Assembly (NCBI RefSeq): GCF_010725725.1
Contig: NZ_AP022599.1
Coordinates: 1,798,001-1,862,000 of the forward strand
DNA length: 64,000 nucleotides
Origin: Mycolicibacterium pulveris
GTDB taxonomy: Bacteria; Actinomycetota; Actinomycetes; Mycobacteriales; Mycobacteriaceae
Reading direction: 5' to 3'
Shown here: piece after piece, positions 13,622 to 63,800 of the stretch
How positions within the stretch are numbered: the stretch's first letter is position 1
How the letters are laid out: the number at the start of each line of letters is the position of its first letter
The notes under the pieces: generated by a model
What the model saw: the letters and a program-made list of their open reading frames with translations, nothing else
The model's database searches: none
What the model was told of the DNA's origin: nothing
Translations under genes and position numbers: made by a program

Positions 13622-13703
13622 CCAGGCTCTCCCGATCAACTAATTGACGCTTCTGCAAGATCTCGTAAACCATACTTCGCAGCCGGAACGCTGTCACGGG
13701 GTT
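13621..13703 (-). repeat. Duplicated promoter block, mbtH copy
   Basis: The block contains ACTAATTGACGCTTCTG (17 identical bases starting near 13639) and, further upstream of mbtH, CTGTCACGGGGTT (13691-13703). Both recur in the same order and at nearly the same spacing at 26201-26285, upstream of the PKS genes. It probably carries the promoter of the mbtH-NRPS operon. The start of mbtH lies 82 nt from the far end of the block. Confidence 0.7.
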
Positions 13704-13988
13704 CGGAGTTAACCCAGTCACGTGCAGTTACGTTTCCGCGGGTTAACTTGCGGTATCGGTCTTTTGAGCGCAACGCTTAGTTTTGCACCCGTTACCGACG
13801 GTAATGCGTAAAAGTCAGCACATTGCATTCAATTTGCTGAAACCGCCAACGGGCGCTTCGCCCCACACCCGCGAGAACCCACGTCTGGATGCCGGCACCA
13901 ACTCCCAGCGCGTCCGGCCGCACGGCCCCGACCGCTCCCACCGTGCGGTGCGGGCGACTTGTGGAAAGGGTTGCGGCCTAATTTATTT
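13622..13988. other. Intergenic region upstream of mbtH-NRPS genes
   Basis: This 367-bp stretch is without a gene, between the methyltransferase stop and the mbtH start, and is more AT-rich than its surroundings. Its mbtH-proximal 80 bp are duplicated upstream of the PKS genes. A copy of the recurring 14-bp element lies at 13645-13658. A separate 13-bp perfect inverted repeat, TTACCGACGGTAA, lies at about 13792-13804. No convincing ORF or RNA gene was seen. Confidence 0.6.
13645..13658. promoter_or_regulatory. Recurring palindromic element, site 1
   Basis: TGACGCTTCTGCAA; the left arm matches TNACG and the right arm is degenerate. It lies 24 nt upstream of the mbtH start codon. Confidence 0.5.
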
Positions 13989-14867
13989 CTAGGAGGACCC
14001 CGCGGTACGTAATTGCGATCGCAATATTCGGTACTCCAACAAGCCCGCCCGTAACTGTTCGTAGATGGCCGACCCGGGTAACGCGAGAAAGTTCGCGACA
14101 CGCGCGTTTCCGTCGCCATAAACCTGCGCCCAGTTGCTGCTCGCTTGGTCGCGTGAGGCCAACACATTAGCGGTGATATCGCGGTCGCTTTCGGTGACAA
14201 AACCCAGCGATGCCAAACGCATCCTGACGTAATCCCAGTCGTCCGGGCTCAGGAAGTCGGTGTGCAAGAACCATGCGCCGGAACGGCAGATTCTGCGTAC
14301 CTCGTTCAGGAACTTCGGCAGGTTTCCATAAGAATGCGACGACTCCACATTCAGGACTGCGTCGCAGAACTCATCAGGCAGGGGCAGATTCAGCGCATCG
14401 CCGACCTTGAAATCGATCGCATGCTTGGCATGAGCCTTATTGCAGAAGGCGATCGCTTCGGAGGACATATCAATGCCGATGACCTCACCGTCGAATTTCT
14501 CCGCCACCAGTGCCGAGTTCCCACCTCGACCGCAACCGATCTCGACAATGGTGCGGTTATTGAGGTCAACGGGACCGACAACCTCCAACACCAGTCGGAC
14601 CGAGTTGGCATTGAAAGTGCCGTCGCGAATATCGAAGACGGACTCGTTGTTCGCATCCGTCGGAAGGTATCCGTAGTTGAGGAAGAACGATGAATCGGCC
14701 ACTCCGACTTCTTCCAGGCGGCGACTGAGCTTGTTGTAGAAGCTGCGCCATCCGCCGGCGGTCGTCGAAAGCAGGTCATCGGCAAGGTACGCCGACATCG
14801 CCACTTGTGAATCGTCCTCGGATTCGACTTGCACCGAAGGTTCGCCAGGACGTTCCATCGCCGTCAT
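13989..14867 (-). CDS. Class I SAM-dependent methyltransferase next to the PKS
   Basis: This 292-residue protein starts at ATG 14867, 28 nt after the PKS stop, with GGAG 9 nt upstream, so it is probably co-transcribed with the PKS. The SAM-binding glycine motif VEIGCGRGGNSALVAEKF is near residue 110, followed by VIGIDMSSEAI, and a post-core VNVESSHSYG. The FFLNYGY stretch before the core resembles the FINWAYEEDP region of Rv2952-type lipid methyltransferases. Methylation of the PKS-derived acyl chain is a reasonable guess from position, but the substrate cannot be read from the sequence. Confidence 0.85.
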   Translation of the reverse strand: MTAMERPGEPSVQVESEDDSQVAMSAYLADDLLSTTAGGWRSFYNKLSRRLEEVGVADSSFFLNYGYLPTDANNESVFDIRDGTFNANSVRLVLEVVGPVDLNNRTIVEIGCGRGGNSALVAEKFDGEVIGIDMSSEAIAFCNKAHAKHAIDFKVGDALNLPLPDEFCDAVLNVESSHSYGNLPKFLNEVRRICRSGAWFLHTDFLSPDDWDYVRMRLASLGFVTESDRDITANVLASRDQASSNWAQVYGDGNARVANFLALPGSAIYEQLRAGLLEYRILRSQLRTAGSS

Positions 14868-14895
14868 AGCACCCAACTCCGCATGGATTCTCCGA

Positions 14896-25910
<11,015 letters not shown>

Positions 25911-25914
<4 letters not shown>

Positions 25915-26107: not shown

Positions 26108-26129
26108 CCGATCCTCGAACCCGGGTGCT

Positions 26130-26201: not shown

Positions 26202-26285
26202 CCCGGGTCTCTCCAGCTCCACTAATTGACGCTTCTGTCAGAATCTGTAACCTTACTGCTCCGGCGCGGACCCTGTCACGGGGTT
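26201..26285 (-). repeat. Duplicated promoter block, PKS copy
   Basis: This is the counterpart of 13621-13703. It shares the 17-base core starting at 26221 and the 13-base CTGTCACGGGGTT at 26273-26285, with about the same spacing (84 versus 82 nt to the start codon). It probably drives the small ORFs, the PKS and the methyltransferase. Its far end runs into the last codons of the neighbouring glycosyltransferase. Confidence 0.65.
26227..26240. promoter_or_regulatory. Recurring palindromic element, site 2
   Basis: TGACGCTTCTGTCA, a TGAC-N6-GTCA palindrome inside the duplicated promoter block upstream of the PKS genes. Confidence 0.55.
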
Positions 26286-30241: not shown

Positions 30242-32428
30242 TTGTCCCAGGCAGAACGTCTTGGCGCTACCGAGGCACAGCAGAGTCCGCGCTCCGAACA
30301 GAACCGGTTCCGTCCCGATATCGAGGGCTTGCGTGCCGTCGCGGTGCTGGCCGTTGTCCTCTTCCACGCTGCCCTGCCAGGGTTCGGCGGCGGATACGTC
30401 GGCGTCGACGTGTTCTTCGTCATCTCGGGCTTCTTGATCACCGGGTTGTTGTGGCGTGAGCTGAGCACGACGGGAACCGTGCGGCTTCGCAGCTTCTACG
30501 GCGCACGGGCCCGCCGCTTGCTGCCGGCCTCCGCGGCGGTCGGGGTCGTCACCATGATCGCCTCGGCAATTCTGTTGCCGCCCTTGCAGGTTCGGCCGGC
30601 ACTCAGTGACGGCATCGCCAGCGCGCTGTATGTCAGCAACTACCAGTTCGTGTTGCGAGGCGTCGACTACTTCGCCGACCGCATGTCGCCGTCGCCTTTC
30701 CTTCATTACTGGTCATTGGGTGTCGAGGAGCAGTTCTACCTCGTGTGGGCGCCGATGATCCTCGGCACGGCGTGGCTGGTCCGACTGGTACGCCGCCGCA
30801 CTGGATCAGAGGCGGCTTCCTCACGACGCCCGTATCTGGTGCTCCTCGCGCTGGTCGCGGCGGTTTCGTTCGTGCTGTCGTTTCTCACGACGTACCTGGT
30901 GCCCGCTGCAGCGTTCTATTCGTTGCCGACCCGCGCCTGGCAGCTCGCCGTGGGCGGGCTGATCGCCCTGACGGCGGGCCATTGGCGTCGCGTGAAAGCG
31001 ATACCCGCCGCGATCATGGGCTGGGCGGGGCTGGCCCTGATCCTGTTGGCCTGCACGTCGTTGAGCCCGACCACGTTGTATCCCGGTACCGCCGCCTTGC
31101 TGCCCACCCTGGGGGCCGCGCTGGTGATCGCCGCCGGCTGCGCGCGACCCGATGAGGGCTGCGGGCGCCTGCTTGGCTTGCCGTCGGTGCGCGCCATCGG
31201 CCGCATTTCCTACTCGTGGTACCTGTGGCACTGGCCGGTCCTGGTACTCGCCCCGTTCCTGCTGGGCCACCACCTCAGCCTGCCCGCCCGGTTGGCTGCT
31301 GCGCTGGTGTCCGCCGGGTTGGCGTGGCTCACCCTGCACTACCTCGAAAACCCACTACGGTTCGCTCCCAAGATCCGCACCTCACCCCGGCGCAGTCTCG
31401 GGCTGGGCGCGGCGGCCACCGTGATCGCAGTAGCCGTCGGCGTCGGCCTCCTCAGGGTGGTACCGATCCCGGTCGGCCAGGGCGTACCGGCGAAGCCGGT
31501 CACCCTCACCGCAGCCCTCGTCCCGGCAGGGTCCGACATCAGCGCGTATGACGCGGCGGTGCGGCACACCTTCGCCCAAGCACACGCGGCGGTCGCCGCC
31601 TCGACCGATCTGACGGCCGTTCCCTCGAATCTCACTCCGCCACTGGCCGAGGCGTGGGCCGACAAGGAGGCCATGTTGTTCGACGGCTGCCTGCGCGAAC
31701 CGTTCCAAAGCGGGCAGCCAGAGTGCGCGATGGGCGACACCGCCTCGACGACGACGGTGGCCCTGGTCGGAGATTCCCACGCAGCAATGTGGACCACTGC
31801 ATTTCAGCAAGTGGCCTTCGAGCGGAACTGGCGACTGGAACTACTCGCCAAGGGTGCCTGTCCATTGCTGGACTTACCGTTGACCAGTCCCTTGGGTCGG
31901 CTGGCCGACTATCTGGGTCGCTGTGGAGAGTGGCGCGCGCAGATCCTCGACCGGCTGGAAGCCGATCCCCCTCAACTGGTCGTATTGGGGCTGTGGCGCG
32001 GCTACGGGACAGAGGAGTCGCTGTCGGGGTACCGCGCATACGACACCGCCTGGACCGATGCGTTGACCCACTTGGTGCAACGTCTGCGTGCCACCGGTGC
32101 GCAGGTGCTGGTGCTGGGGCCGATCCCAAGTCCCGGCTTCGTGGTGCCGGTGTGTCTGTCCGGTTACCTCGATGACGTGCCGGCGTGCACGCCGGAGCGG
32201 TCATCGGCGGTCAACGAATCAGGGATCGCCGCGGAGGCCGCGGCCACGACCGCCGGCGACGCACAGTACGGCGACGTGACCGAGTTGTTCTGCACTACCG
32301 ACCTATGCCCGGTCATCGTGGGTAACACCCTGGTCTATTTCGACTCGACGCATACGACGCTGGAGTACGCGAGGCTGCTCGCCCCGGCCGTCGGCGCACT
32401 CGCCGACCGGGCGCTCGCCGATGACTAG
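30242..32428 (+). CDS. AcylT3-SGNH O-acyltransferase (OafA-like), copy 1
   Basis: A 728-residue integral membrane protein. An N-terminal acyltransferase-3 domain of about ten helices carries the catalytic-type LFHAALPGFGGGYVGVDVFF near residue 40. It is followed by a periplasmic SGNH domain with GDSHAAMW near 510 and DSTHTTLEY near 702. Such proteins move acyl groups across the membrane onto sugars. The start is taken as TTG 30242 with AGGCAGG upstream, as no in-frame ATG or GTG fits; the paralog at 45194 also uses TTG. It probably acetylates or acylates a sugar of the glycolipid. Confidence 0.9.
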   Translation: MSQAERLGATEAQQSPRSEQNRFRPDIEGLRAVAVLAVVLFHAALPGFGGGYVGVDVFFVISGFLITGLLWRELSTTGTVRLRSFYGARARRLLPASAAVGVVTMIASAILLPPLQVRPALSDGIASALYVSNYQFVLRGVDYFADRMSPSPFLHYWSLGVEEQFYLVWAPMILGTAWLVRLVRRRTGSEAASSRRPYLVLLALVAAVSFVLSFLTTYLVPAAAFYSLPTRAWQLAVGGLIALTAGHWRRVKAIPAAIMGWAGLALILLACTSLSPTTLYPGTAALLPTLGAALVIAAGCARPDEGCGRLLGLPSVRAIGRISYSWYLWHWPVLVLAPFLLGHHLSLPARLAAALVSAGLAWLTLHYLENPLRFAPKIRTSPRRSLGLGAAATVIAVAVGVGLLRVVPIPVGQGVPAKPVTLTAALVPAGSDISAYDAAVRHTFAQAHAAVAASTDLTAVPSNLTPPLAEAWADKEAMLFDGCLREPFQSGQPECAMGDTASTTTVALVGDSHAAMWTTAFQQVAFERNWRLELLAKGACPLLDLPLTSPLGRLADYLGRCGEWRAQILDRLEADPPQLVVLGLWRGYGTEESLSGYRAYDTAWTDALTHLVQRLRATGAQVLVLGPIPSPGFVVPVCLSGYLDDVPACTPERSSAVNESGIAAEAAATTAGDAQYGDVTELFCTTDLCPVIVGNTLVYFDSTHTTLEYARLLAPAVGALADRALADD

Positions 32429-32575: not shown

Positions 32576-33652
32576 ATGCCGAAGTCTGTCCTCATCACCG
32601 GCGGGGCCGGGTTCATCGGGTCAGCGCTCGCGCGCCGTCTCGTCGAGGACGGTTACGACGTCGGCGTCCTGGACGTTCTGCATCCTCAGGTGCACGGCGC
32701 GCACGCCACTCTCGACCTGCCGGCATCGGTGCGGTTCTTCAGCGGCGATGTCACCCATGCGCCCGACTGCGATGTCGTGCTGCGGCTGTTCAAACCTGCA
32801 CAGGTCGTGCATCTGGCGGCCGAGACCGGCACGGCGCAGTCCCTGTCGGAGGCCAGCCGACACGGCTCGGTCAACGTGGTCGGCACCACCCAGTTGCTCG
32901 ACGCGTTGAGCCGCTGCGGGTACGTACCCGACCAACTGGTACTGGCATCGTCACGGGCCGTCTACGGAGAAGGGGCCTGGCAAGCGGGCTCCCACATCTT
33001 CTATCCGCCGCCGCGCAGCCACGCCCAGCTCGCCGCAGGCAGCTGGGATCCCCCGAGCCCATCGGGCGAGCCCGCCGCGCCACTGGCGAGCAGCGCCGGT
33101 CGAACCGAGCCTCGGCCCACCAACATCTACGCCGCGACCAAGCTGGCCCAGGAGCACATCATGGCCGCCTGGGCGGCAGCCCACGACACCCGGCTCAGCG
33201 TGTTGCGCCTGCAGAACGTCTACGGCCCCGGCCAATCGCTGACGAACTCCTACACCGGAATAGTGGCGCTGTTCGCGCGTCTGGCACGCCAGCAGCAGAT
33301 CTTGGAGGTCTACGAAGACGGCCGCATCGTGCGCGATTTCGTGTACATCGACGACGTGGTCGAGGCGCTGTTCTCGGCGATCGAGGAGCCCGCGGGCCAA
33401 GCACGCTGCGTCGACATCGGTTCGGGTGTTCCCACCACCATCCACGAACTCGCCCGACAACTGGCATCGATCTGCGACGCACCGGAGCCGGTCGTCGTAC
33501 CGAAGTTCCGCGACGGTGACGTTCGCGCCGCCCGCTGCGACACCGAGCAGGCGATGAAGGAACTCAACTGGCGCCCGAAATGGTCGCTCGACGAGGGGAC
33601 GCGGGCGCTGCTGGACTGGATCGGCACACTTGTCCCGAACGGACACCGCTAA
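32576..33652 (+). CDS. NAD(P)-dependent sugar epimerase/dehydratase (extended SDR)
   Basis: A 358-residue extended short-chain dehydrogenase. It has TGGAGFIGS at the N-terminus (cofactor binding), ASSRAVYGEG and YAATKLAQEH near residue 185 (Tyr and Lys of the catalytic pair), and the VYGPGQ and FVYIDDVVEA signatures of nucleotide-sugar epimerases. The start ATG 32576 has AGGAGT upstream. It begins an apparent operon with drrABC. In GPL loci such an enzyme helps make the deoxy sugar of the core (for example 6-deoxytalose from the rhamnose pathway); the exact reaction here is not determined. Confidence 0.85.
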   Translation: MPKSVLITGGAGFIGSALARRLVEDGYDVGVLDVLHPQVHGAHATLDLPASVRFFSGDVTHAPDCDVVLRLFKPAQVVHLAAETGTAQSLSEASRHGSVNVVGTTQLLDALSRCGYVPDQLVLASSRAVYGEGAWQAGSHIFYPPPRSHAQLAAGSWDPPSPSGEPAAPLASSAGRTEPRPTNIYAATKLAQEHIMAAWAAAHDTRLSVLRLQNVYGPGQSLTNSYTGIVALFARLARQQQILEVYEDGRIVRDFVYIDDVVEALFSAIEEPAGQARCVDIGSGVPTTIHELARQLASICDAPEPVVVPKFRDGDVRAARCDTEQAMKELNWRPKWSLDEGTRALLDWIGTLVPNGHR

Positions 33653-39956: not shown

Positions 39957-39970
39957 TAACGCTCGCGTCA
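39957..39970. promoter_or_regulatory. Recurring palindromic element, site 6
   Basis: TAACGCTCGCGTCA, 85 nt upstream of the dehydrogenase start; strong match to TNACG-N4-CGTNA. Confidence 0.55.
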
Positions 39971-40150: not shown

Positions 40151-41419
40151 TTAGCGTCTCGCGCGCAGCCGAGCGAAATCCTCCACCAAATCAGCAGCGG
40201 TCGAGGCACTCTTTGAGGGTCTCGTGATACGCGGAGCGATCTGCCGTGCATGCTTGCGGTACCGAGGAGCAAGGACCCGGCGCAGGCCGGCGTACAGTGA
40301 CTTCTCGGTAGTGGTCGAAAACCGCTGCCCGGCACCGACTTTCAATCGCTTGAGCTGCGCGGCGAAGAACGGCTGATCGGGCAACGTCCAGAGGATCAAT
40401 TGGGGAACCCCCGCGCGTAGACACGCTGCCACGGTGCCCGAACCGCCATGGTGCACGACCGCGCGGCACATCGGGAAGATCGTCGCGTAGTTGACCTGGC
40501 CCACCACCTTGACGTGGTCGAACCGGGGCGCGGATGCGAAGTCGGTTCCGCCCGCACCGACCAGCGCGCGCTCACCCAGCCGCGCACAAGCGGTGGCGAT
40601 CATTTCGACCGTTTCTGCCGGTGAGCCGATCGGAACGCTGCCGAACCCGAAGAAGATCGGCGGCGATCCAGCGGCGATCCACTGCGCCACCTCCTCGTCG
40701 GCGTCGGTCGGCGACTCGAGCGCCAACGCACCTACGAACGGCCGCGTCTCGTTCCATTCCGCCCACTCGACCGCCAACCCGGGAAAGCACACCCGATCGT
40801 AGGCCTGGATCTCCAGCGCACCACGGTCGGCGATGCGCCGCGGAGCGGGCGCGGTGGCCGGATCCAGGCCCAGCTCACGACGCTGCGCGTTCTCGTCATC
40901 CCGCGTCCCGCGCCAGGCCGCCCAGTCGTTCACCGTCATCACCATGCGGCTCACTGGCGGCGGCAGAATCGGCATGAGCTGACCGTGGGCGCGGCACGGA
41001 AAGTAGTGCAACGTGACCAGCGGCAGATCGAGAGCCTCGGCGACGTTGGCGGCGGGCTGTTCGAAAATCAGCCCGGTCAGGAGGACATCTGCCCCATCGG
41101 CGGCCGCCGCCAGCGACGTGGTCATGGCCGCCCAGCAATCGGCGGCGAACTGCTCGGTTTCGCGCGCCATGCTCCGGAGCTCCTTGAGCTTCCAGGGTGT
41201 GCGCGAGTAGCAGGTGAAGTACTTGCGTTGCAGATCCAGGATCGGCGCCGAATCCAGGCCGTAACCAATCGCCTCGAGCCCGGCCGAGGCGGCAAACCCG
41301 ATCAGGTTGGGCGGGACGGCCATGCATACGTCGTGCCCCCGACGCTGCAACTCGCGGCCGACGACGACAGCGGGTTCGACGTCACCGCGCCCGCCATAGC
41401 TCGCCAGCACAAATCTCAT
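40151..41419 (-). CDS. GPL-type glycosyltransferase (GT1/GT28 fold)
   Basis: A 422-residue Gtf paralog with N-terminus MRFVLASYGGRGDVEP, donor site VVHHGGSGTVAACLRAG near residue 323 and TLPDQPFFAAQLKRLKVG intact. It stands alone on the minus strand, divergent from a GMC oxidoreductase gene, with which it shares a 177-bp intergenic region carrying a perfect copy of the palindromic element. Confidence 0.9.
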   Translation of the reverse strand: MRFVLASYGGRGDVEPAVVVGRELQRRGHDVCMAVPPNLIGFAASAGLEAIGYGLDSAPILDLQRKYFTCYSRTPWKLKELRSMARETEQFAADCWAAMTTSLAAAADGADVLLTGLIFEQPAANVAEALDLPLVTLHYFPCRAHGQLMPILPPPVSRMVMTVNDWAAWRGTRDDENAQRRELGLDPATAPAPRRIADRGALEIQAYDRVCFPGLAVEWAEWNETRPFVGALALESPTDADEEVAQWIAAGSPPIFFGFGSVPIGSPAETVEMIATACARLGERALVGAGGTDFASAPRFDHVKVVGQVNYATIFPMCRAVVHHGGSGTVAACLRAGVPQLILWTLPDQPFFAAQLKRLKVGAGQRFSTTTEKSLYAGLRRVLAPRYRKHARQIAPRITRPSKSASTAADLVEDFARLRARR

Positions 41420-41486: not shown

Positions 41487-41500
41487 TGACGCACTCGTCA
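41487..41500. promoter_or_regulatory. Recurring palindromic element, site 7 (perfect arms)
   Basis: TGACGCACTCGTCA, between the divergent glycosyltransferase (68 nt to its ATG) and GMC oxidoreductase genes. Confidence 0.6.
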
Positions 41501-41596
41501 GCGTTCGTCGTCTGGGCTGCGCCCACGGTTGATAGGCTGCCGAATCGCCCAGACCCGACCCCGCCGAGCTGGGCCATGCCGCTGAGGAGTTCGGTC

Positions 41597-43237
41597 TTGG
41601 TAGACGGCGAGCTGAGTTCGCGCGAAGCCGAGCGCATCGTGTGGGACGCGATCGTCGTGGGCGCCGGCATGGGCGGCGGCATGTTCGGCTACTCGCTGGC
41701 CCGGTCGGGCCGGCGAGTGCTGTTCGTCGAAAAGGGCCGCTCGACGTTGCCCGGCACGCCGGGGACCATCCGGGCCGCCATGCCGGAGCTGGCCGAGCCG
41801 ACGGCGGCTCGATCCCCCGAGGCCTACTACGCCGCGTTGGCGCGGGCCGGCCGCTCGACCGACGAGGTCGAAGACATCAGCGGCCGCTTCCCCAGACGGT
41901 TCGTGCCGTTCATCGGTAGCGGAACCGGGGGATCTTCGGCGCTCTACGGAATGGTCTGCGAACGGTTGTTCGTCGACGACTTCACGCCCCGACAACACTT
42001 CTCCGACCCCGGCGATTCCACGGTCCCGGAAGCGTGGCCGATCACCTACGACCAGATGGCGCCCTGGTATGCCGAGGCGGAGAAGCTGCTACGCGTACGC
42101 GGCCAAGCCGACCCGTTACGGCCGGAGGCCGCTGCGGTGGGATTGCCCGCCGCGCCGCCGTTCTCGGCCGACAACCGGCCGCTGGTCGACCATCTCTCAG
42201 GTCTGGGATTGCATCCCTATCACCTGCCGATGGCCTGCGACTACACCGACGGGTGCGCCACGTGTCAGACCTATCTCTGCGCACGGCCGTGCAAGAACGA
42301 CGCCGCCCGCAACTGCGTGCTGCCTGCCGTGTCGAATCACGGCGCCGGCTTGTTGACGGAGTGCCGGGTGGTGGGCCTGGACGCCGACCGCACCCGGGTC
42401 CGACGGGTGATCTGCGAGCACCCGACGGGTCGCCTGACATTGACGGCGAAGGTGGTGGCGCTGGCCGCGGGTGCGCTGGCCACCCCGGTGCTGCTCCTGG
42501 GCTCCCGCTGCGGCGACTGGCCGCGAGGGTTGGCCAACGGGTCAGACATGGTGGGGCGCAACCTGATGCGCCATCTGCTCGATCCGATCGAGATCTGGCC
42601 GCGGCCCGACAGCACGATCACCGCCGCCAACAAGGAGATCGGCCTCAACGATTTCTACTTCTTCGAGGGCCAGAAGTACGGCACCGTTCAATCCTTCGGT
42701 GCGATACCCCCGATGGAATGGCTCATCAACCGGCCGGGCCCGCGAGGAACGGCCCTACGGCTCATGCTTCCAGCGGTGCGTCACGTTTACGAGAGGTTCT
42801 TCACCGGGGGGCTGATCCTCGCCTCGATGATGGAAGACCTGCCCTATTTGGACAATCGGGTGATGCTGCCGGAGAACCCGAGGCCCGACGGCCGCCAGCG
42901 AATGCGAATTCAATATCGACTGCGCGCTAACGATCTTCGCCGCCACGCGACCTTTCAGCAACTTTTCCAGGAGGCTGTGAAGCCGTTTCGCAAGCGGAGG
43001 TTGGGCAGCGGCAGAGACAACTCCAATATGGGACACGTCTGCGGCACCTGCCGATTCGGCACCGATCCGGCCACCAGCGTGCTGGACCCGCAGAACCGGG
43101 CGCACCAAGTCGAGAACCTCTACGTGGTGGACACGTCGTTCTTCCCCTCCAGTGCGGGCTTGAATCCCAGCCTGACCGTCGCGGCCAATGCCTTGCGGGT
43201 GGCCGCCCATGTGAACGGGACGCACTTCGCCAACTGA
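41597..43237 (+). CDS. GMC-type FAD oxidoreductase, copy 1
   Basis: A protein of about 546 residues. It has FAD-binding VVGAGMGGGMFGYSLA, IGSGTGGSSALYG, and C-terminal GTCRFGTDPATSVLD and GLNPSLTVAANALR (the His/Asn-containing catalytic end of GMC enzymes). A Cys-rich stretch (CATCQTYLC...C...C) lies mid-protein. TTG 41597 is chosen because GAGGAG lies just upstream and the paralog at 56345 aligns there; the upstream ATG 41576 lacks a ribosome-binding site. GMC enzymes oxidise alcohols, including sugar hydroxyls. The likely role is forming a keto sugar for later reduction or epimerization. Confidence 0.85.
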   Translation: MVDGELSSREAERIVWDAIVVGAGMGGGMFGYSLARSGRRVLFVEKGRSTLPGTPGTIRAAMPELAEPTAARSPEAYYAALARAGRSTDEVEDISGRFPRRFVPFIGSGTGGSSALYGMVCERLFVDDFTPRQHFSDPGDSTVPEAWPITYDQMAPWYAEAEKLLRVRGQADPLRPEAAAVGLPAAPPFSADNRPLVDHLSGLGLHPYHLPMACDYTDGCATCQTYLCARPCKNDAARNCVLPAVSNHGAGLLTECRVVGLDADRTRVRRVICEHPTGRLTLTAKVVALAAGALATPVLLLGSRCGDWPRGLANGSDMVGRNLMRHLLDPIEIWPRPDSTITAANKEIGLNDFYFFEGQKYGTVQSFGAIPPMEWLINRPGPRGTALRLMLPAVRHVYERFFTGGLILASMMEDLPYLDNRVMLPENPRPDGRQRMRIQYRLRANDLRRHATFQQLFQEAVKPFRKRRLGSGRDNSNMGHVCGTCRFGTDPATSVLDPQNRAHQVENLYVVDTSFFPSSAGLNPSLTVAANALRVAAHVNGTHFAN

Positions 43238-43325: not shown

Positions 43326-43339
43326 TATCAACATCGTCA
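43326..43339. promoter_or_regulatory. Recurring palindromic element, site 8
   Basis: TATCAACATCGTCA, 33 nt upstream of the methyltransferase start; the right arm is intact. Confidence 0.45.
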
Positions 43340-43371: not shown

Positions 43372-44223
43372 ATGACACGCCCCTCAACGCCGCGCGCTGA
43401 CGCCGTCAGGCGGTTGATTACCGCGGACGCTGCGCTCGGTCCAGTCGTGCGGAACACCGTCCAAGGCATCAACAAGCGGCTCTATCCGTACTTGACCCGA
43501 CGGGTCGACGACAACGTCTTCTTCCTCAATTGGGGTTACGAAGAAGACCCGGCGATGGCCATCCCGCTGGAGGCCTCGGATGAACCCCACCGATACCCGA
43601 TTCAGCTGTACCACAGCACCGCCACCCAGGCCGGCGGCCTTGCCGGAAAGCAGGTGCTCGAGGTGGGCTGCGGGCATGGCGGCGGCGCCTCGTACCTCGC
43701 TCGCGCGCTAGGCCCGGCCTCCTATGTCGGGTTGGATCTCAACCCGAAGGGGATTGAGTTCTGCCGTCGGAACCATCAGGTGCCCGGCCTGGAGTTCGTC
43801 CAGGGCAACGCCGAGAGCCTGCCGTTTCCAGCGGAGTCGTTCGACGCGGTGATCAACGTCGAATCGTCGCATTGCTACCCACATTTCGACCGGTTCCTCG
43901 GGGAGGTCGAGCGGGTGCTGCGGCGTGGCGGCGCATTTCTGTACACCGACGTCCGACAGCGCTACGAGTGCCCGCGATGGGAAGAGGGGCTGGCCAGCGC
44001 GACCGGACTGCAGCTCGTCTCATGGCGGGAGATCAACACAGAGGTGCTGCGGGGCCTCGATCTCAATCCGACCCCGTGGGGTGGCCAGGTGATGGACAGC
44101 CTGGTGCCGAAATTCATGCGGCGGGTAGCCCGCCAAGGGGCGCCGGTCCGGGAGTCGTGGATCTACCGGAACCTGGAAAACGGGCGGATGTCTTACCGGA
44201 TGTATTACTTCGTCAAGGGCTGA
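43372..44223 (+). CDS. Rv2952/Fmt-type lipid O-methyltransferase
   Basis: A 283-residue class I methyltransferase closely resembling Rv2952 (phthiotriol dimycocerosate methyltransferase) and the GPL fatty-acid methyltransferase Fmt. It has NVFFLNWGYEEDPAM, PLEASDEPHRY, the SAM loop VLEVGCGHGGGASYLARAL, VGLDLNPKGIEFC and SSHCYPHFDRFL. ATG 43372 follows GGAGAGGAGG about 15 nt upstream. It most likely methylates a hydroxyl of the lipid chain, such as the beta-hydroxyl left by a KR-only PKS module. Confidence 0.88.
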   Translation: MTRPSTPRADAVRRLITADAALGPVVRNTVQGINKRLYPYLTRRVDDNVFFLNWGYEEDPAMAIPLEASDEPHRYPIQLYHSTATQAGGLAGKQVLEVGCGHGGGASYLARALGPASYVGLDLNPKGIEFCRRNHQVPGLEFVQGNAESLPFPAESFDAVINVESSHCYPHFDRFLGEVERVLRRGGAFLYTDVRQRYECPRWEEGLASATGLQLVSWREINTEVLRGLDLNPTPWGGQVMDSLVPKFMRRVARQGAPVRESWIYRNLENGRMSYRMYYFVKG

Positions 44224-45113: not shown

Positions 45114-45193
45114 AGACGGATTGAGACCTCTCTTGACTCGATCGCTGAAAAAGCGCGGCCTCAACAGTCCCCGTCGATATGAAGTAGGCGGCC

Positions 45194-48652: not shown

Positions 48653-49927
48653 CTAACAAACACGGCTGGCGTGTACGAAGTTCTCGACGAGGTCGGTGGC
48701 GGTGATAGCGCTGTCTGCCGGCTTCGTCATTTGGGCCGCCAGCGCGCGTGCCCGGTTCCGGTAGTCCGGGGCCAGTATCAGTTGCAGATCCGCAACCAAT
48801 TTCCGCTCCGTAATGGTCGAGAACCGCCGCCCGGTACCAACTTTCAAGCGCTTTAACTGAACGGTTCGCAACCATTGGTCGGGCAGCGTCCAGAGACCCA
48901 CCTGCGGTACTCCGGTACGCAGGCACGCGGCGATGGTCCCGGCACCACTGTGATGGACCACCGCGCGGCAGGCGGGGAAGATCGTTGCGTAGTTCACTTG
49001 GCCCACCACTTTGACGTGTCCCGGACAGGTGGTCGCGCCGAAGTCGGTCGAGCCCGCGCCCACCAATGCCCGCGCACCCAGCTGCTCGCACACTGCGCTG
49101 ATCATCGCGACCGTATCCGTTGGCGATCCAACCGGAACGCTGCCGAAGCCGAAAAAGATCGGCGGCGTTCCCTCGGCGATCCACGACAAGACCTCATCAT
49201 CGGCGTCTGTCGGCGCCTCCAACGTCAGCGTGCCGACGAAGGGGCGTTGCTCGCCCCAATTCGCCCACTCAGCCGCCAGCCCCGGAACCACCACCTCGTC
49301 ATACGCCTGGATTTCCAGGGAGCCACGGTGTGCGATCCTGTGCGGCCAGGGCTTTGTCGCCTTCGGCAGACCCAGCAATCCGCGCTGGATCTCCTCCACT
49401 TGTTTGACCGGACCCGCCCACGAAACCCACTCGTATCCCTTCATGACCGCACGACCCAACGGGGCCGGAATCAGAGGCAGGATCTTGCCGTTGGCGCGGG
49501 TCGGGAAGAAGTGCAGGGTCGCCAGCGGAATGTCGTAGTACTCAGCAACGTTGGCAGAGAACTGCTCGAAACCGAACCCGGCGACGATCGCGTCGGCCCC
49601 CTCCGCTAGGGAGGTGAGAGTCGAGAACGCTTCCTCCGTCCAGCACTGAGTCACGATCCGACCGATATCGCGCCCCAGCCTTTCGAGATCTCTTGATTTC
49701 CAAGGGTGTTGGAAGAAGCACGTCCAGTAGTCGCGTTGCGCGTCCATCATGACCTGCGAGTCCTGACCCCAGGGAATCGCCGTCAGCCCGGCCGCCTCCG
49801 CAAAGGCGATCACGTTAGGCGGGACCGCAATGCTCACGTCGTTGCCCCTTCGCAGCAACTCGCGGCCGACGACGATGGAAGGCTCGACATCGCCGCGAAC
49901 GCCGTGGCATGCGAGCACAACTTTCAT
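48653..49927 (-). CDS. GPL-type glycosyltransferase (GT1/GT28 fold)
   Basis: A 424-residue Gtf paralog with N-terminus MKVVLACHGVRGDVEP. The donor site reads VVHHSGAGTIAACLRTG near residue 325, with Ser replacing the first Gly of HHGG, followed by an intact TLPDQWLRTVQLKRLKVG. It is the first gene of a pair with an AcylT3 acyltransferase, which may modify the sugar this enzyme adds. Confidence 0.9.
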   Translation of the reverse strand: MKVVLACHGVRGDVEPSIVVGRELLRRGNDVSIAVPPNVIAFAEAAGLTAIPWGQDSQVMMDAQRDYWTCFFQHPWKSRDLERLGRDIGRIVTQCWTEEAFSTLTSLAEGADAIVAGFGFEQFSANVAEYYDIPLATLHFFPTRANGKILPLIPAPLGRAVMKGYEWVSWAGPVKQVEEIQRGLLGLPKATKPWPHRIAHRGSLEIQAYDEVVVPGLAAEWANWGEQRPFVGTLTLEAPTDADDEVLSWIAEGTPPIFFGFGSVPVGSPTDTVAMISAVCEQLGARALVGAGSTDFGATTCPGHVKVVGQVNYATIFPACRAVVHHSGAGTIAACLRTGVPQVGLWTLPDQWLRTVQLKRLKVGTGRRFSTITERKLVADLQLILAPDYRNRARALAAQMTKPADSAITATDLVENFVHASRVC

Positions 49928-50007: not shown

Positions 50008-50090
50008 GCGTTGTCAGACGAATCCCGGGCAGGAATCGTGCGGGCCAATCCAGCCCGGCGGCTGACGACATCGCGGCCCATCTCCTGCTT

Positions 50091-51089
50091 TCAACTCGGC
50101 TGCCGGATGGGCAGGCCCGCCGCGCGATAAACGGCGTCGATGACGGACATGTTCTCGACCGCGTCCTCCGGGGTCGTCCGTACCGGTTCCCCGCGCAGCA
50201 CCGCTGAAGCAAAGGTGTCCAGCTGGTAGGAGTAGGTCGCTCGGCGGGGGAAGCGCTCAACGCGCCTGCCGTTGGCGGATCGGATCGACAGCACAGGGAA
50301 AAGGTGGGGTGCAGCGGGGCTGAGCACCCTCAGCCTGCCGGCATCGCCCACCACGCTGGCCGTCGCCCAGAACAGATGCCCCGACCACAGCGCGCAGCGG
50401 AGCCGGCCCGTGTGCCCGGCGGGGTAGCGCAGTTTTGCCGACATCGCGCGGTCGACACGCGGCTTCTGCAGCTTGGCTTGCGCTGACACGACCTGTGGGG
50501 TGGAGCCGCCGAAGGTGCGTGCGATATTGGCGACGTAGCTGCCGGCGTCCATCATCGCGCCACCAGCGAGCTCGTAGTTGTAGCAGTTGGCGTTGAAGGT
50601 CGGCAGCAACACGCAAAGGCTGACGTCGACGTGCTGCAGTGTGCCGAGCTCCCCAGAGGCGATGATCTCCTCTACGCGGCGAGTCAACGGATGGTGACGG
50701 AACTGGATGGCCTCCATCACCACTCGATCGGATTTCGCTGCCAGATCGGCGATTTCGCGGGCTTCGGCGGCATTGGCGGTGAACGGTTTCTCACACAGCA
50801 CGTGCTTGCCCGCGGCGAGGGCCGCCTTGGTCCATTTGCCGTGCATGCTGGTCGGCACCAGCACGTAGATGGCGTCCAGATCAGGATCGTCGACCATCGC
50901 CTCGTAGCTGCCGTATGCCTTTGCGATGCCATACTTGGCCGCGAAGGCCTCCGCGCTCGGAACATCGCGCGACGCGGCAGCCGCGATCACGACCTCGGGG
51001 TTTCCCTTTGCCGGGTTGATGATCGTCGTCGGTGCAAAGCTCGAAGCGCCCAAGATCCCGATCCGTATCGGGCCCGCCTTGTCGGGCAT
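50091..51089 (-). CDS. Gfo/Idh/MocA oxidoreductase, copy 1
   Basis: A 332-residue NAD(P)-dependent dehydrogenase. It has an N-terminal Rossmann start IRIGILGASSFAPTTI, AGKHVLCEKPFTANAAEA near residue 95 (catalytic-type Lys of EKP) and the C-terminal Gfo/Idh barrel half. ATG 51089 has GGAGAG 8 nt upstream. It shares close similarity with two paralogs in the window. Such enzymes reduce keto sugars or oxidise sugar hydroxyls. It lies between a glycosyltransferase and its own paralog. Confidence 0.85.
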   Translation of the reverse strand: MPDKAGPIRIGILGASSFAPTTIINPAKGNPEVVIAAAASRDVPSAEAFAAKYGIAKAYGSYEAMVDDPDLDAIYVLVPTSMHGKWTKAALAAGKHVLCEKPFTANAAEAREIADLAAKSDRVVMEAIQFRHHPLTRRVEEIIASGELGTLQHVDVSLCVLLPTFNANCYNYELAGGAMMDAGSYVANIARTFGGSTPQVVSAQAKLQKPRVDRAMSAKLRYPAGHTGRLRCALWSGHLFWATASVVGDAGRLRVLSPAAPHLFPVLSIRSANGRRVERFPRRATYSYQLDTFASAVLRGEPVRTTPEDAVENMSVIDAVYRAAGLPIRQPS

Positions 51090-51246: not shown

Positions 51247-51260
51247 TAACTACTACGTCA
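51247..51260. promoter_or_regulatory. Recurring palindromic element, site 10
   Basis: TAACTACTACGTCA; it begins 19 nt before site 11, giving a tandem pair about 160 nt upstream of the oxidoreductase start. Confidence 0.45.
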
Positions 51261-51265
51261 GAAAT

Positions 51266-51279
51266 TGACAATATCGTCA
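51266..51279. promoter_or_regulatory. Recurring palindromic element, site 11
   Basis: TGACAATATCGTCA; including flanks, TTGAC-N6-GTCAA is a perfect inverted repeat. It is the second of a tandem pair. Confidence 0.55.
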
Positions 51280-51335
51280 ATAGCGTCGGCGCGGTAGCAG
51301 TGCCGGTCGACATCATGTGACCCGGCATTCCTCCC

Positions 51336-53200: not shown

Positions 53201-53294
53201 CCACTCCACACGCTCAATTCGCCGAGCCTAGGCCGCCAACGTGGCCGTGATGAAGGGTACGTCAAGCACGCGATCGGTAGACCCGTTACGAATC

Positions 53295-56134: not shown

Positions 56135-56209
56135 CCTGAGTTCCCCTAGTCTCAGCGAATCCCCCGCGACTTGCCATCACGCGGAGCAGCGACCATTATG
56201 GCGCATTAT

Positions 56210-56223
56210 TATCGATCGCGTAA
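56210..56223. promoter_or_regulatory. Recurring palindromic element, site 12
   Basis: TATCGATCGCGTAA, between the divergent PE-PPE and GMC copy 2 genes, 76 nt from the PE-PPE start codon. Confidence 0.5.
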
Positions 56224-56344
56224 AATACTCTGTTGCTGCTCCGCCCTCGTGTAGACGTTCGGTCGTTGAGGCTGCCTCGGCGTTGATAGCATCCCGAATC
56301 GCCCAGACCAGGCGAGTGTTGGGCCATCACCCTGAGGAGTGGTT

Positions 56345-57994: not shown

Positions 57995-58042
57995 CCGGAT
58001 CGTCGAAGCAACAACCTCGCGAGCGCCGATAGCATCGAAAAC

Positions 58043-59826: not shown

Positions 59827-59862
59827 AGGCCTGGTGCCACACCGAAAACAGCTCGACGTCAA

Positions 59863-60675
59863 CTATTTTCGCCAAAATACGCCCGTTCCGTCGATGTCGA
59901 CGATCTCCGCGGATATCCCGTGTTTTTCTCGGTAGTCAGTCACGGCTTTCTCGCACGCCTTCACCGCCAGGTAGTCGTCGACGATGCAGAAACCCCCGGG
60001 CGACAGGCGCGGATACAGCGCATCCAGAGCCTGGATCGTGGATTCATAGAGATCCCCGTCCAGTCGCAACACCGCGATGCGTTCGATCGGGGCGTCGTGC
60101 AGGGTGTCCTTGAACCACCCCGGGAGAAACCGGACTTGGTTGTCCAGCAGCCCGTATCGCTCAAAATTGGCCCTGACATCAGCTTCCGACACCCCTAAGA
60201 TGCCGGCAGCGAACTCGGCCCTGATCCCTTTGTCCGCCTCGTAGTTCTTGGTGTCAGAGCGCGGGACACCTTGAAAGGAGTCGCACAGCCACACGTTGCG
60301 CGTCGTGTCCCCGTACGCCGCCAAGACGGCCCGCATCAAGATGCACGCACCGCCTCGCCATACTCCGGTTTCGACGAGGTCGCCGGGGACGTCTTCGTCC
60401 AAGACCGTTTCCACGCAATGCTGCAGGCTGGTGAGCCTCTTCATGCCGATCATCGTCTCGGCCTCAGGCGGCCAGTCCAGCCCGGCGTCGCGCACATGCT
60501 GGCCCCGCACGCCCGCCCCTCTGAGCATGGGGCCGACCGTGTTGACCGCCTTGAGAAGCAGACGCCGCCGCAGCGGCCAATCTGACGGCATCCGCTCGTG
60601 CATTCCAAACCGGGTCAGGTTGCGTCGAAGCAGATCAAGGTACAACGAGCGCACGTCGTAGTCGGTAACGGTCAA
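59863..60675 (-). CDS. TylF/Rmt-type sugar O-methyltransferase
   Basis: A 270-residue TylF/MycF family enzyme, of the size and type of the rhamnosyl methyltransferases (Rmt, Mtf) in GPL loci. It has RLTSLQHCVETVLDEDVPGDLVETGVW (substrate and SAM region), CDSFQGVP, LRLDGDLYESTIQAL with the metal-binding acidic residues, and CIVDDYLAVKACEKAV. The start ATG 60675 is 47 nt from a palindromic element. It probably methylates a deoxyhexose hydroxyl. Confidence 0.88.
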   Translation of the reverse strand: MTVTDYDVRSLYLDLLRRNLTRFGMHERMPSDWPLRRRLLLKAVNTVGPMLRGAGVRGQHVRDAGLDWPPEAETMIGMKRLTSLQHCVETVLDEDVPGDLVETGVWRGGACILMRAVLAAYGDTTRNVWLCDSFQGVPRSDTKNYEADKGIRAEFAAGILGVSEADVRANFERYGLLDNQVRFLPGWFKDTLHDAPIERIAVLRLDGDLYESTIQALDALYPRLSPGGFCIVDDYLAVKACEKAVTDYREKHGISAEIVDIDGTGVFWRK

Positions 60676-60721
60676 AATCGCTCACTCTCGCACACCAGCA
60701 TTTTCGGCGCTGAGTCTAGAC

Positions 60722-60735
60722 TTACCTTGGCGTCA
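60722..60735. promoter_or_regulatory. Recurring palindromic element, site 13
   Basis: TTACCTTGGCGTCA, 47 nt upstream of the TylF-type methyltransferase; the right arm is intact. Confidence 0.45.
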
Positions 60736-60765
60736 ATTTTTGTCGTTTCCGGCAGAACTCGACTC

Positions 60766-62034
60766 TCAGTCGACCCGCTTGCGGCGGGCGTAATCCTCCA
60801 TCAGATCGGCGGCGGCCGCGACGCTCTCGGCGGGTTTGGTCATTCGTGTCGCGATCTGACGTGCGCGCGCGAGGTATTGCGGTGCCAGGATTCTCCGCAG
60901 GTCGGCGACCAGCGTTTTCTCCGAGGTGGCCGCGAACCGCCGCGAGGTGCCGACCTTCAGGCCCTTGACCGCGGCCCCCCAGATCAACTGCACATCCGCC
61001 ATCCACAGAATCAGCGTCGGGACTCCCGCGCGCAGTCCGGCCGCGGTGGTGCCCGCACCGCCGTGATGCACGACAGCGCGGCAGGCCGGGAAGATCGTCG
61101 CGTAGTTCACCGCACCCACGACCTTGACGTGGTCGAACTGCGGCACGTCGCTGAAGTCGGTCCAGCCGGCGCACACCAGGGCGCGTTCGCCGACCTGTGC
61201 GCAAGCCCCCGCGATCATGGCGATCATGTCGGCGGGTGACTCCACCGGAATGCTGCCGAAGCCAAAACAGATCGGCGGCGGCCCCGCGGCGATCCAGGAC
61301 ATGACGTCCTCATCCGATTCGGTCGGCAATTCCAGCGTCAGCGTGCCGACGAAGGGTCGCTGGCCATCCCATCTCGCCCACTCGGTCGCCAGCCCGGGGA
61401 ACAACACCTCGTCGTATGCCTGGATCTCCAGCAGTTCTCGCTCGGCGATCCGACCCGGTACCGGGCCGGTCGCCCGTGGTAAGCCCAGCTTCCGCCGCTG
61501 CGCGTCGACGACCTTCCGCACGCCGCGCCAGATCAGCCACTCGTACATCTTCATCGCCCAGCGGACCGCAGGCGCGGGCACATTCGGCACGAGCCGGCCG
61601 TTGACGCGCATCGGGAACCACAACACGGTGGCCAACGCGACACCGCAGTACTCCGCGACGTCGAACGCGAGTTCCTCGTAGCTGACGCCGCTGACCAGTA
61701 AGTCGACGCCTTCCGCGACCGTGGCCAAGGTCTTGGTCATCTCTTCCCAAGCCCGGATGCCGGGCTCGCGTGACTCGCGGAGATACTGCTGCAGATCTCG
61801 GACCTTCCAGAAATTGCGGAAGAAGTAGCCCCAGAAGTCGCGCGTGTCCTCCAGCCACGCCTGCGTCTCTGGACCGTAGGAGACCGCCGAAAGGCCGACC
61901 GACTCGGCCGAGCCGATCAGGTCGGGAGGGACGGCCATGAGCACCTCGTGTCCCCGCCGCATCAACTCGCGGCCGACCGCGATGCCCGGCTCGACGTCTC
62001 CGCGAGTTCCGTAGAACGCCAGCACGAACTTCAT
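60766..62034 (-). CDS. GPL-type glycosyltransferase (GT1/GT28 fold)
   Basis: A 422-residue Gtf paralog with N-terminus MKFVLAFYGTRGDVEP and donor site [17 protein letters not shown] near residue 323. The usual LPDQ...AAQ segment is replaced by WMADVQLIWGAAVKGLKVG, as in the enzyme at 26276, so these two may share a donor type. ATG 62034 has GGAG 7 nt upstream; an earlier in-frame ATG seven codons away is less likely. Confidence 0.9.
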   Translation of the reverse strand: MKFVLAFYGTRGDVEPGIAVGRELMRRGHEVLMAVPPDLIGSAESVGLSAVSYGPETQAWLEDTRDFWGYFFRNFWKVRDLQQYLRESREPGIRAWEEMTKTLATVAEGVDLLVSGVSYEELAFDVAEYCGVALATVLWFPMRVNGRLVPNVPAPAVRWAMKMYEWLIWRGVRKVVDAQRRKLGLPRATGPVPGRIAERELLEIQAYDEVLFPGLATEWARWDGQRPFVGTLTLELPTESDEDVMSWIAAGPPPICFGFGSIPVESPADMIAMIAGACAQVGERALVCAGWTDFSDVPQFDHVKVVGAVNYATIFPACRAVVHHGGAGTTAAGLRAGVPTLILWMADVQLIWGAAVKGLKVGTSRRFAATSEKTLVADLRRILAPQYLARARQIATRMTKPAESVAAAADLMEDYARRKRVD

Positions 62035-62177
62035 CGGATACTCCGGCCTCTCCATCCCCGTAAGCGCCGGCCAACCGCCCCAGGCTCAGCGGCCGGACGG
62101 GCTAACCCGGCCAGCACGTTCACCTCGCCGATTGACCGCGGCGCGGACTCCAGATCGCAAAAGCATGTCAGTTACCC

Positions 62178-62191
62178 TGACGCTCGTGTCA
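62178..62191. promoter_or_regulatory. Recurring palindromic element, site 14
   Basis: TGACGCTCGTGTCA, between the divergent glycosyltransferase and condensation-fold acyltransferase genes, 73 nt before the latter's start. Confidence 0.55.
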
Positions 62192-62263
62192 AATAAGGTC
62201 GTTCTGTCGACACCGACGCCGTAGCGGGAGCCGCGCGCGACCCTGTGCCACCGGAGGCCATCT

Positions 62264-63646
62264 GTGACCACTCAGGACCCTGTACGCACATTGACCGGTG
62301 AAACCAGGCCGGACAACCGGCTTGCGCTGATGGACCAGGCGTTCTACGCGGGGCATCGCGCCAGCGGCCAAAAAGAGGTCATGCAGGTGGCGTGGCTCTA
62401 CGACCGCCCCATCGACCTGGATGGGCTGAAGCGGTTTCACCAGATGATGAGCCGTTCGTTGTGGGGCCGGCTGATCGAGCGTTCACCTCTGCCGTTCGGT
62501 CGGTACCGATGGGTCGCAGCTCAGCGCTCGGCGCCCATCGATATCGCTGAGACTCCGCGTCCACGCGCCGAACTCGGCGACTGGTTCGACGAACGCGCAC
62601 AACTGCCCGTCGACCCTGAACAAGGACCCGCCTGGCACGTCGGCGTCCTTCCTCTGACTGACGGCTCCACGGCGATCACCATGATCATCTCTCACTACGT
62701 GCTCGACGGCCTTGGCAGCGTCGTCGAGGTCGCCAAGGCGATCATGGGTCTTGCTCGCGACCACGACTATCCGCCCCCACGGTCACGCAGTCGCTTGCGC
62801 GCGTTGGTTGAGGATGCCGGTCAAGCCGCCCGCGACATGCCCGAGGTCGCGCGGGCTCTCGTCGCCGCGGCCAAAGAGGCCCGGCGTCGTCAAAACGACG
62901 ACACCCGAAAAGCACCGAAGCCGACAACCGTCCGTCGCGGAGGAGATCACCACGTCGTCGTGCCGGGTGTCTGGGTCCTGATCGACTCGGAGGTTTGGGA
63001 TGCGCGCGCGGCGGCCCTTGGCGGGGCGAGCAACACCCTGGCAACCGGATTGGCTGCGAAACTCGGCGAGTATCTGGGTCGTCGGCATCCCGATGATGGC
63101 ACCGTCAAAATGCAGGTCATCGTCAGCGATCGCACCGAGGACGACACACGCGCGGTTGCGGTGTCTTTCGCCCGCACGGGGATCGACCCGACGGAGGTGA
63201 CGAAAGATCTCAGTACCGCCCGCGGCGCGATAAAGGAGGCACTGAAGACCCTTCGGGACACGCCGGACGAAGCATCGCCGCTTCTGCCGTTGACCCCGTT
63301 CACACCGCGACGGACGTGGAAACAGCTGATGGAATGGGCGATGGACGACCCGGACCAGCCGGCGGTCATCTCCAATTTCGGTGACGTCGGCTCGGCGGTG
63401 ACCTGTCCGGACGGCACCCAGTGCCAGGCCGCGTGGGCGCGCGGGACGAACCAGCACATCACCGAGGATCGACTCGAGCGAACCGGCGGTCTGTTGCAGG
63501 TGTTGTTCGGTCGGCTGCCCACGGTCGGCAAGATCTCCATGAGTATTCAGGCCTACCAACCCGGGGGCGTGACCACCAAGGCCGCTCTGCGGGATCTGGT
63601 GGTGAGCACGTTGGCCGAATTCGACCTGGCCGGCGAGATCGACTGA
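62264..63646 (+). CDS. Condensation/WS-DGAT-fold acyltransferase
   Basis: A 460-residue protein of the CoA-dependent acyltransferase superfamily. HYVLDGLG near residue 145 fits the HxxxDG active-site motif, and VISNFGDVGSAV resembles the second conserved block of this fold. GTG 62264 with GGAGG 8 nt upstream is the start. It is not embedded in an NRPS, so it may act as a stand-alone acyltransferase like the PapA proteins of mycobacterial lipid loci, esterifying a sugar or hydroxyl. Overall similarity to a named PapA was not obvious by eye. Confidence 0.7.
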   Translation: MTTQDPVRTLTGETRPDNRLALMDQAFYAGHRASGQKEVMQVAWLYDRPIDLDGLKRFHQMMSRSLWGRLIERSPLPFGRYRWVAAQRSAPIDIAETPRPRAELGDWFDERAQLPVDPEQGPAWHVGVLPLTDGSTAITMIISHYVLDGLGSVVEVAKAIMGLARDHDYPPPRSRSRLRALVEDAGQAARDMPEVARALVAAAKEARRRQNDDTRKAPKPTTVRRGGDHHVVVPGVWVLIDSEVWDARAAALGGASNTLATGLAAKLGEYLGRRHPDDGTVKMQVIVSDRTEDDTRAVAVSFARTGIDPTEVTKDLSTARGAIKEALKTLRDTPDEASPLLPLTPFTPRRTWKQLMEWAMDDPDQPAVISNFGDVGSAVTCPDGTQCQAAWARGTNQHITEDRLERTGGLLQVLFGRLPTVGKISMSIQAYQPGGVTTKAALRDLVVSTLAEFDLAGEID

Positions 63647-63786
63647 CGAGTCGTCTGTTTGAGGGACCACGCCGGAAACGCCGCAGAGCAGGAGGTTTGC
63701 TGATCAGGCCACCGCAACTTCCGCCGCGTGCTCAACAGGGGGAAATCCCCCGGATGCAACACAGGATCATGCATTACCATCCGTCG

Positions 63787-63800
63787 TTACGGAACCGTCA
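63787..63800. promoter_or_regulatory. Recurring palindromic element, site 15
   Basis: TTACGGAACCGTCA, in the leader of the last, partial gene; strong match to TNACG-N4-CGTNA. Confidence 0.5.

Follow-up and report, generated by a model that had tools for sequence, protein, structure and literature searches.

A glycopeptidolipid-type locus with a recurrent palindrome

We analysed a palindrome, TTGACG-N4-CGTCAA, that recurs between the genes of a 64,000-nucleotide stretch of Mycolicibacterium pulveris DNA (G000:C1:1798001-1862000, hereafter the window), part of a 5.48-Mb genome assembled as a single contig. Relatives of the window are mycobacterial. Pfam scans of 35 of its open reading frames (ORFs) revealed nonribosomal peptide synthetase (NRPS) domains, glycosyltransferases, methyltransferases, acyltransferases, sugar-nucleotide enzymes, a drr-type ABC transporter and Gfo/Idh enzymes, and an mmpS-mmpL-mmpL set (gene names assigned by eye) begins at 64098, just right of the window. 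In non-tuberculous mycobacteria, glycopeptidolipids (GPLs) determine the type of colony and the interaction with the host. Gene content and general knowledge, together with comparison to the M. smegmatis locus in the excerpt of its description that we consulted (PMC1885439), identify the locus as GPL-type. Plasmid and Rfam searches gave no match. No DNA-binding family appeared among the Pfam results for the 35 ORFs, a subset of those in the window, in agreement with a first-pass annotation made from the sequence alone, which had found no regulator gene there.

That annotation had listed fifteen intergenic copies of a 14-bp form of the palindrome. All fifteen lie where it placed them, and their palindromic character was confirmed. 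We scored them with a fuller 16-bp motif, TTGACG-N4-CGTCAA, which has 12 informative positions and in which at least 10 of 12 matches define a strong site. On this scale 13 of the 15 reach 9-11, the sites at 13645 and 51247 reach 8, and a weaker candidate that had been noted at 45134 also reaches 8/12. Genes were called with our own codon-based script, and intergenic DNA was defined from these calls. The sites are listed below by window position, with L and G numbers serving throughout as our handles for stretches of DNA and for genomes.

13645..13658, minus strand: operator-like site upstream of the second NRPS (mps2-like) gene; 8/12
26227..26240, minus strand: operator-like site roughly 310 nt upstream of the first NRPS (mps1-like) gene; 10/12, with 9/12 before the ortholog in L083 and L088
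28369..28382, no single strand: site between a divergent methyltransferase gene (minus) and the 28439 ORF (plus); 9/12, kept in L088
30210..30223, plus strand: site before the acyltransferase gene 30242-32428; 10/12, kept in L083
32488..32501, plus strand: site before the NDP-sugar epimerase/dehydratase gene 32576-33652; 10/12
39957..39970, minus strand: site abutting a TAGACT -10-like box of the UDP-sugar dehydrogenase gene 38490-39872; 10/12
41487..41500, minus strand: site 8 nt before an AATAAT -10-like box of the glycosyltransferase gene 40151-41419, with a divergent GMC oxidoreductase gene at 41576-43237; 11/12
43326..43339, plus strand: site 18 nt before a TACTAT -10-like box of the methyltransferase gene 43447-44223; 9/12, kept in L084 and L087
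49994..50007, minus strand: site 9 nt before a CATAAT -10-like box of the glycosyltransferase gene 48653-49927; 10/12
51247..51260, minus strand: proximal site of a tandem pair upstream of the Gfo/Idh oxidoreductase gene 50091-51089; 8/12
51266..51279, minus strand: distal site of the tandem pair, 28 nt before TAGTAT; 11/12, register equal in most orthologous loci shown
56210..56223, no single strand: site in the divergent promoter region of a PE-PPE-domain gene (minus) and a GMC oxidoreductase gene (plus); 9/12, kept in L084
60722..60735, minus strand: site 2 nt before a TAGACT -10-like box of the TylF-type methyltransferase gene 59863-60675; 9/12
62178..62191, no single strand: site in the divergent promoter region of the glycosyltransferase gene 60766-62034 (minus) and the ORF 62264-63646 (plus); 10/12, kept in L085
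63787..63800, plus strand: site about 300 nt before the mmpS-mmpL-mmpL set starting at 64098, outside the window; 10/12, kept in L085

In L089 a 9/12 site likewise stands upstream of the ortholog of the second NRPS gene, with a 78-aa ORF in between. A further 10/12 match at 53250-53265, not among the fifteen, lies between divergent LCM-type and GT4 genes and keeps both its centre and its halves across species; it is probably a different element. The NRPS genes at 8796-15011 look split into overlapping frames (an ORF ending at 8809, then 8796-10340, 10211-11260, 11302-13605 and 13989-15011), which reflects real decay, an unusual structure or sequencing errors.

Enrichment, spacing and conservation of the half-sites

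The palindrome is concentrated between genes. Allowing the 14-mer at most one mismatch gave 17 matches in 4.3 kb of intergenic DNA (3.97 per kb) and 22 in 59.7 kb of coding DNA (0.37 per kb). Taken over the whole window the excess is only mild (39 matches against 28.3 expected, a count reached by 3 of 100 shuffles), so the enrichment signal sits in the intergenic part. With the 16-mer, strong sites number 10 in 4.2 kb of intergenic and 6 in 59.8 kb of coding sequence, and sites of at least 9/12 number 23 and 62, respectively. Unrelated intergenic DNA is correspondingly poor in the motif: sixteen arbitrary 20-kb stretches of the same genome contain 1 strong site and 25 sites of at least 9/12 in 26.8 kb between genes, and the intergenic part of 80 kb of flanking DNA contains 1 strong site in 5.9 kb. 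The 16-mer consensus was extended after the window had been viewed, which favours the window and makes this comparison partly circular; other loci had no part in choosing the consensus, and the related loci constitute the independent test.

The signal depends on both halves and on the gap between them. Half-site spacings of 0-3 and 5-12 nt yielded 1-7 sites of at least 9/12 in the intergenic DNA of the window, against 23 at N4, and 179 permutations of the half-sites yielded at most 4. A regulon would be expected to display such inverted half-sites, held at one spacing and commoner in promoters than in coding or unrelated DNA.

The motif also recurs before orthologous genes in related GPL loci. 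Among named-genome loci centred on one glycosyltransferase, 19 of 29 carry at least one strong intergenic site, or 18 of 28 distinct loci once the identical L010 and L011 are merged; the ten that lack one are L001-L005, L015, L018, L022, L023 and L029. Twenty further stretches divide into 8 with a strong site (L083-L085 of G231, L087 of G068, L094, L096, L097 and L101) and 12 without, the latter including L090-L092 from an abscessus-like genome (our inferred label) and the two other G068 stretches, in which sites reach 9/12 only.

Within orthologous promoters the halves are conserved and the spacer drifts. Column identity for halves, centre and flanks is 0.93, 0.47 and 0.68 (20-nt flanks) in 18 promoters of the glycosyltransferase class GT_c compared without gaps, 0.98, 0.64 and 0.68 in 11 promoters of the UDPG_dh class, and 0.92, 0.75 and 0.65 in the 10 rows of the Gfo_a set, two of which come from the window, one of these being a weak neighbouring match. 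The presence of a site was the criterion for choosing rows, supplemented by other letters in the UDPG_dh and Gfo_a sets; this selection favours the halves, so the fall in identity at the centre is the informative part. Left and right halves are conserved to 0.86 and 1.00 in GT_c, 0.92 each in Gfo_a, and 1.00 and 0.97 in UDPG_dh, and eight other UDPG_dh promoters retain an intact right half with the left half off consensus. Half-sites that are kept while the central four bases drift are as expected for an operator bound by a dimer. Collectively, these patterns indicate that a cluster-wide operator almost certainly exists and that it is very probably read by a dimeric regulator. The operator and dimer parts of the original proposal are thus well supported by enrichment, spacing, the drifting centre and recurrence; its suggestion of a TetR- or MarR-like family was neither supported nor excluded.

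Outside the cluster, a 12/12 palindrome lies in L053 (1226001-1236000 of the same genome), a 10-kb stretch with 56% G+C where gene calling recognised hardly any typical coding sequence and which is possibly a mobile region. L068, L123 and L125 hold further intergenic matches in this genome. In L123, positions 3848 and 9625 mark two genes for similar, very large surface-like proteins, each with an upstream aaatTGACA(G/C)TAACGTCA site.

Register of the sites to the core promoter

As the offset we took the number of nucleotides between a -10-like hexamer and the 3′ end of the palindrome, a sequence-based estimate with transcription starts unmapped. Among 25 promoter classes, several display preferred registers. 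The offset is 1 nt in 11 and 8 nt in 8 of 28 UDPG_dh rows, 8 or 9 nt in GT_c (16 counts among 20 rows), 18 nt in three of four MT11 rows and 19 nt in 4 of 17 RMNT rows. GMC_a has offsets of 21-22 and 30-31 nt (up to 10 of 19 rows) and Gfo_a one of 28 nt in seven of ten rows, with 7 nt in six of the ten as well; the tandem pair 51247/51266 takes up two of the registers listed here. TylF_c lies at 2, 8 or 10 nt depending on the species. Most of the remaining classes gave no clear offset.

These registers bear on whether the sites are simply -35 elements (TTGAC) of the housekeeping sigma factor, the inverted second half being coincidence or spacer bias. Sigma factors recognise a directional -35/-10 pair and not a palindrome, and a sigma-70 -35 element would be held at 16-18 nt from the -10 in one orientation; here the offsets vary by promoter class. 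The resemblance of TTGACG to TTGACA is genuine, and GT_c, GT_d and PE-PPE promoters have an AATAAT or CATAAT box 18-19 nt after the left half. However, the motif requires both halves and the exact 4-nt gap, the right half is conserved like the left or more so in GT_c and Gfo_a and almost as well in UDPG_dh, the UDPG_dh and TylF_c promoters have the palindrome directly against the -10, and the motif is nearly absent from intergenic DNA elsewhere in the genome. We regard the -35 explanation as very improbable. The earlier dismissal of a plain -35 reading holds for promoters at which the palindrome abuts the -10 or lies further upstream, and has to be qualified for those at which the left half stands near the -35 position, 18-19 nt from AATAAT or CATAAT.

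The position of the sites over or beside the core promoter leads us to prefer repression, which we consider somewhat the likelier mode of action. Activation, above all at the more upstream sites, is possible yet falls short of probable. The -10 offsets of several classes step by about 10 nt (8-9, 18-19 and 28), as if the factor faced RNA polymerase, although these steps carry no statistical test, and GplR1 of M. abscessus is described, in the part of the report consulted, as a strong positive regulator of the GPL locus (PMC12455991). Sites that abut the -10 (UDPG_dh and TylF_c) are hard to square with ordinary activation, and the shifts of register between orthologs (2, 8 and 10 nt in TylF_c) suit a blocking protein.

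Candidate regulators and known control of GPL loci

We looked for WTTGAC-N6-GTYA beyond the cluster in the three closest genomes and read the surroundings of some of the copies. One conserved outside copy emerged, between the gene on the ileS side and a gene for a 122-aa helix-turn-helix (HTH)-like protein (G000:C1:5176016-5176381), at least 2.1 Mb from the GPL cluster. Directly downstream lies a 245-aa gene whose product looks like a membrane protein. Orthologs of the candidate (E at most 2e-49) occur in 27 of 39 genomes, the G002 copy containing stop codons, and the other 12 have no candidate or only distant relatives or fragments; in G172 the gene survives only in broken pieces. A 10/12 palindrome stands upstream of the gene in 22 of the 27 ortholog loci and at the broken G172 copy. 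In G014, G052 and G049 the upstream copies score 8-9/12, and in G002 and G140 none is among the best two. Across 27 aligned upstream regions (26 ortholog loci, leaving out G002, plus G172) this GTGACG-N4-TGTCAA has identities of 0.96 in the halves, 0.56 in the centre (columns 0.33-0.89) and 0.70 in the flanks. At the level of sequence, then, the candidate has a matching palindrome at its own promoter. Counting by eye, we found that another inverted element, GGGAG-N5-TCCC, immediately precedes the palindrome in 24 of the 27 aligned regions (L148; near 5175900 in this genome).

Presence of the candidate largely coincides with presence of the motif. Of 24 genomes with the candidate, 18 have strong intergenic GPL sites (57 in 48.7 kb), as against none of nine without it (0 in 20.2 kb), a split with a Fisher P of 1.3e-4 when kinship is ignored; at 9/12 or better the counts are 131 and 10. 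G172, which lies within the candidate-bearing clade, combines its broken gene with the absence of a strong GPL site. This count omits G052, G049 and G002 (with the candidate) and G088, G016 and G075 (without it) and excludes intergenic runs longer than 700 nt, and several of its genomes appear to be the same records as loci L001-L029, so the two sets are not independent. NCBI names some relatives of the candidate XRE family transcriptional regulator, and the candidate is probably an XRE-like HTH protein. From such sequence comparisons, the chances that it is the GPL regulator are about even.

Several observations weigh against that assignment. The HTH_3 match scores 16.2 bits against a cut-off of 23, and the Pfam HTH matches as a group lie below their cut-offs; a PDB sequence search with the candidate returned nothing below E 0.85, and its AlphaFold model is of low confidence (mean pLDDT 48.8). 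Six genomes have the candidate without a strong GPL site: G180, G084 and G056 lack a site even at 9/12, and G053, G043 and G156 reach 9/12 only. On an IleS tree of 29 genomes, candidate presence needs just two changes, a deep split and the G172 loss; because the link between candidate and motif rests on one deep split and one recent loss, its statistical independence is small. A few such sites beside a regulator gene are expected by chance across a genome. A strict A/T-flanked pattern found nothing in 60 genomes, and a looser version matched 31 of 35 genomes, both carriers and non-carriers of the candidate, with no hit in the genome of the window. Nor did an additional target hold up. The gene for a 171-aa secreted protein has a 10/12 site in three close relatives, and CTAACGATYTCG, which comprises the left half and centre, stands upstream of this gene (L135:5816 and orthologs) in several other genomes, including two that lack the candidate; CTAACGATYTCG is probably another element, which counts against a wide regulon.

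There is a substantial possibility, somewhat under an even chance, that the operator is real and that another factor reads it, for example a TetR or MarR protein encoded elsewhere, with the HTH gene being a mere target or the bearer of an unrelated look-alike operator. The genome contains 143 TetR_N matches, other mycobacteria have similar palindromes adjoining genes identified by eye as TetR-like (L120 and L103, for example), and the correlation of candidate and motif is phylogenetically thin. Against this, the TetR-like genes near matching sites in this genome were judged to be locally acting, from their neighbours or a better second palindrome; these are L035 2554-3216, L056 4247-4855 and one in L126, where the site scores 8/12. 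At the promoter of the left-flank TetR-like gene (L031), no intergenic site reaches 9/12. None of the few TetR_N genes examined was tied to the cluster, and MarR was not searched. The palindromes beside TetR-like genes at L120:3923, L103:3249 and L117:3955 imply that this half-site and spacing may serve regulators from more than one family. We rejected a LysR gene located some 16 kb to the left of the cluster: present in 13 of 33 genomes and without a match (E at most 1e-60) in the other 20, including the motif-bearing G136, G099 and G014, it does not track the motif, and a 10/12 site accompanies it in the three closest genomes only. The motif does not match the MadR consensus, TCTGTG-N7-GT, as given in the portion of the literature consulted. 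Reading the listed flanks by eye revealed no ecf gene; no ecf profile search was made there.

Setting these points together, we lean modestly towards a scattered regulon in which one dimeric factor governs the GPL cluster through TTGACG-N4-CGTCAA, with the regulator and action proposed here. Each half-site would be read by one subunit, and binding at sites that adjoin the -10 or lie as far as about 28 nt upstream would mostly block RNA polymerase. The 122-aa HTH protein would be the factor and would also bind the copy upstream of its own gene; the membrane-protein-like 245-aa product encoded just downstream may tune it. More tentatively, and with the balance tilting against it, a large mycobacterial clade may operate its GPL cluster as a single regulon under a two-part envelope switch, made up of a very small XRE-like repressor and a co-encoded membrane protein near ileS, in place of the GplR1-type circuit known from M. 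abscessus, and may have lost this switch together with its operators. The patchy distribution implies that GPL control circuits have been rewired between lineages, a possibility raised for sap/ecf in the excerpt of the M. smegmatis work consulted (PMC1885439). A shared operator and a named candidate make the question of other GPL regulators directly testable.

The kind of system is familiar; this instance, its regulator and its lineage restriction appear to be undescribed within the literature searched. As a text string TTGACG-N4-CGTCAA was not found, though it may stand in papers beyond those searched, and nothing was found linking the XRE family with glycopeptidolipid. XRE/HTH_3 repressors with autoregulated palindromes are a comparable general class. 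The candidate resembles them in its small size, in the XRE names that NCBI gives some relatives and in the palindrome upstream of its own gene, and differs in that its Pfam HTH match is below cut-off and that control of a large surface-lipid cluster would be unusual. The ecf/sap sigma factor pair of the M. smegmatis GPL locus is, in the excerpt consulted, likewise a proposed GPL regulator (PMC1885439); a sigma factor reads a directional -35/-10 pair, whereas the element here is a palindrome at several registers.

The closest comparison is GplR1 (MAB_1638), described in the part of the report consulted as a TetR-like protein required for GPL production in M. abscessus (PMC12455991). Its motif is a 23-nt inverted repeat of 11-1-11 architecture with outer TCTGG, and only two sites are reported in the M. 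abscessus GPL locus, both within a coding sequence; the authors consider it likely that GplR1 directly controls no more than a few of the GPL genes and reaches the others via further transcription factors, and also name MAB_4891c (PMC12455991). That GplR1 controls a GPL locus and binds an inverted repeat would speak for assigning it the present sites, an assignment that we nevertheless find scarcely credible. TCTGG-N13-CCAGA has no exact match in the window and two with one mismatch, its 37 matches with up to two mismatches are no clear excess over the 28.4 expected (7 of 100 shuffles reach 37), neither TCTGG nor CCAGA occurs within 10 nt of the 15 sites, and the abscessus-like locus lacks a strong copy of TTGACG-N4-CGTCAA. 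The two systems would thus be alike in an unlinked regulator that controls the GPL cluster through an inverted repeat and, as far as the consulted part of the GplR1 report goes, unlike in the operator itself: a 23-nt TCTGG-type repeat at two locus sites in the one, and TTGACG-N4-CGTCAA at many promoters of the cluster in the other.

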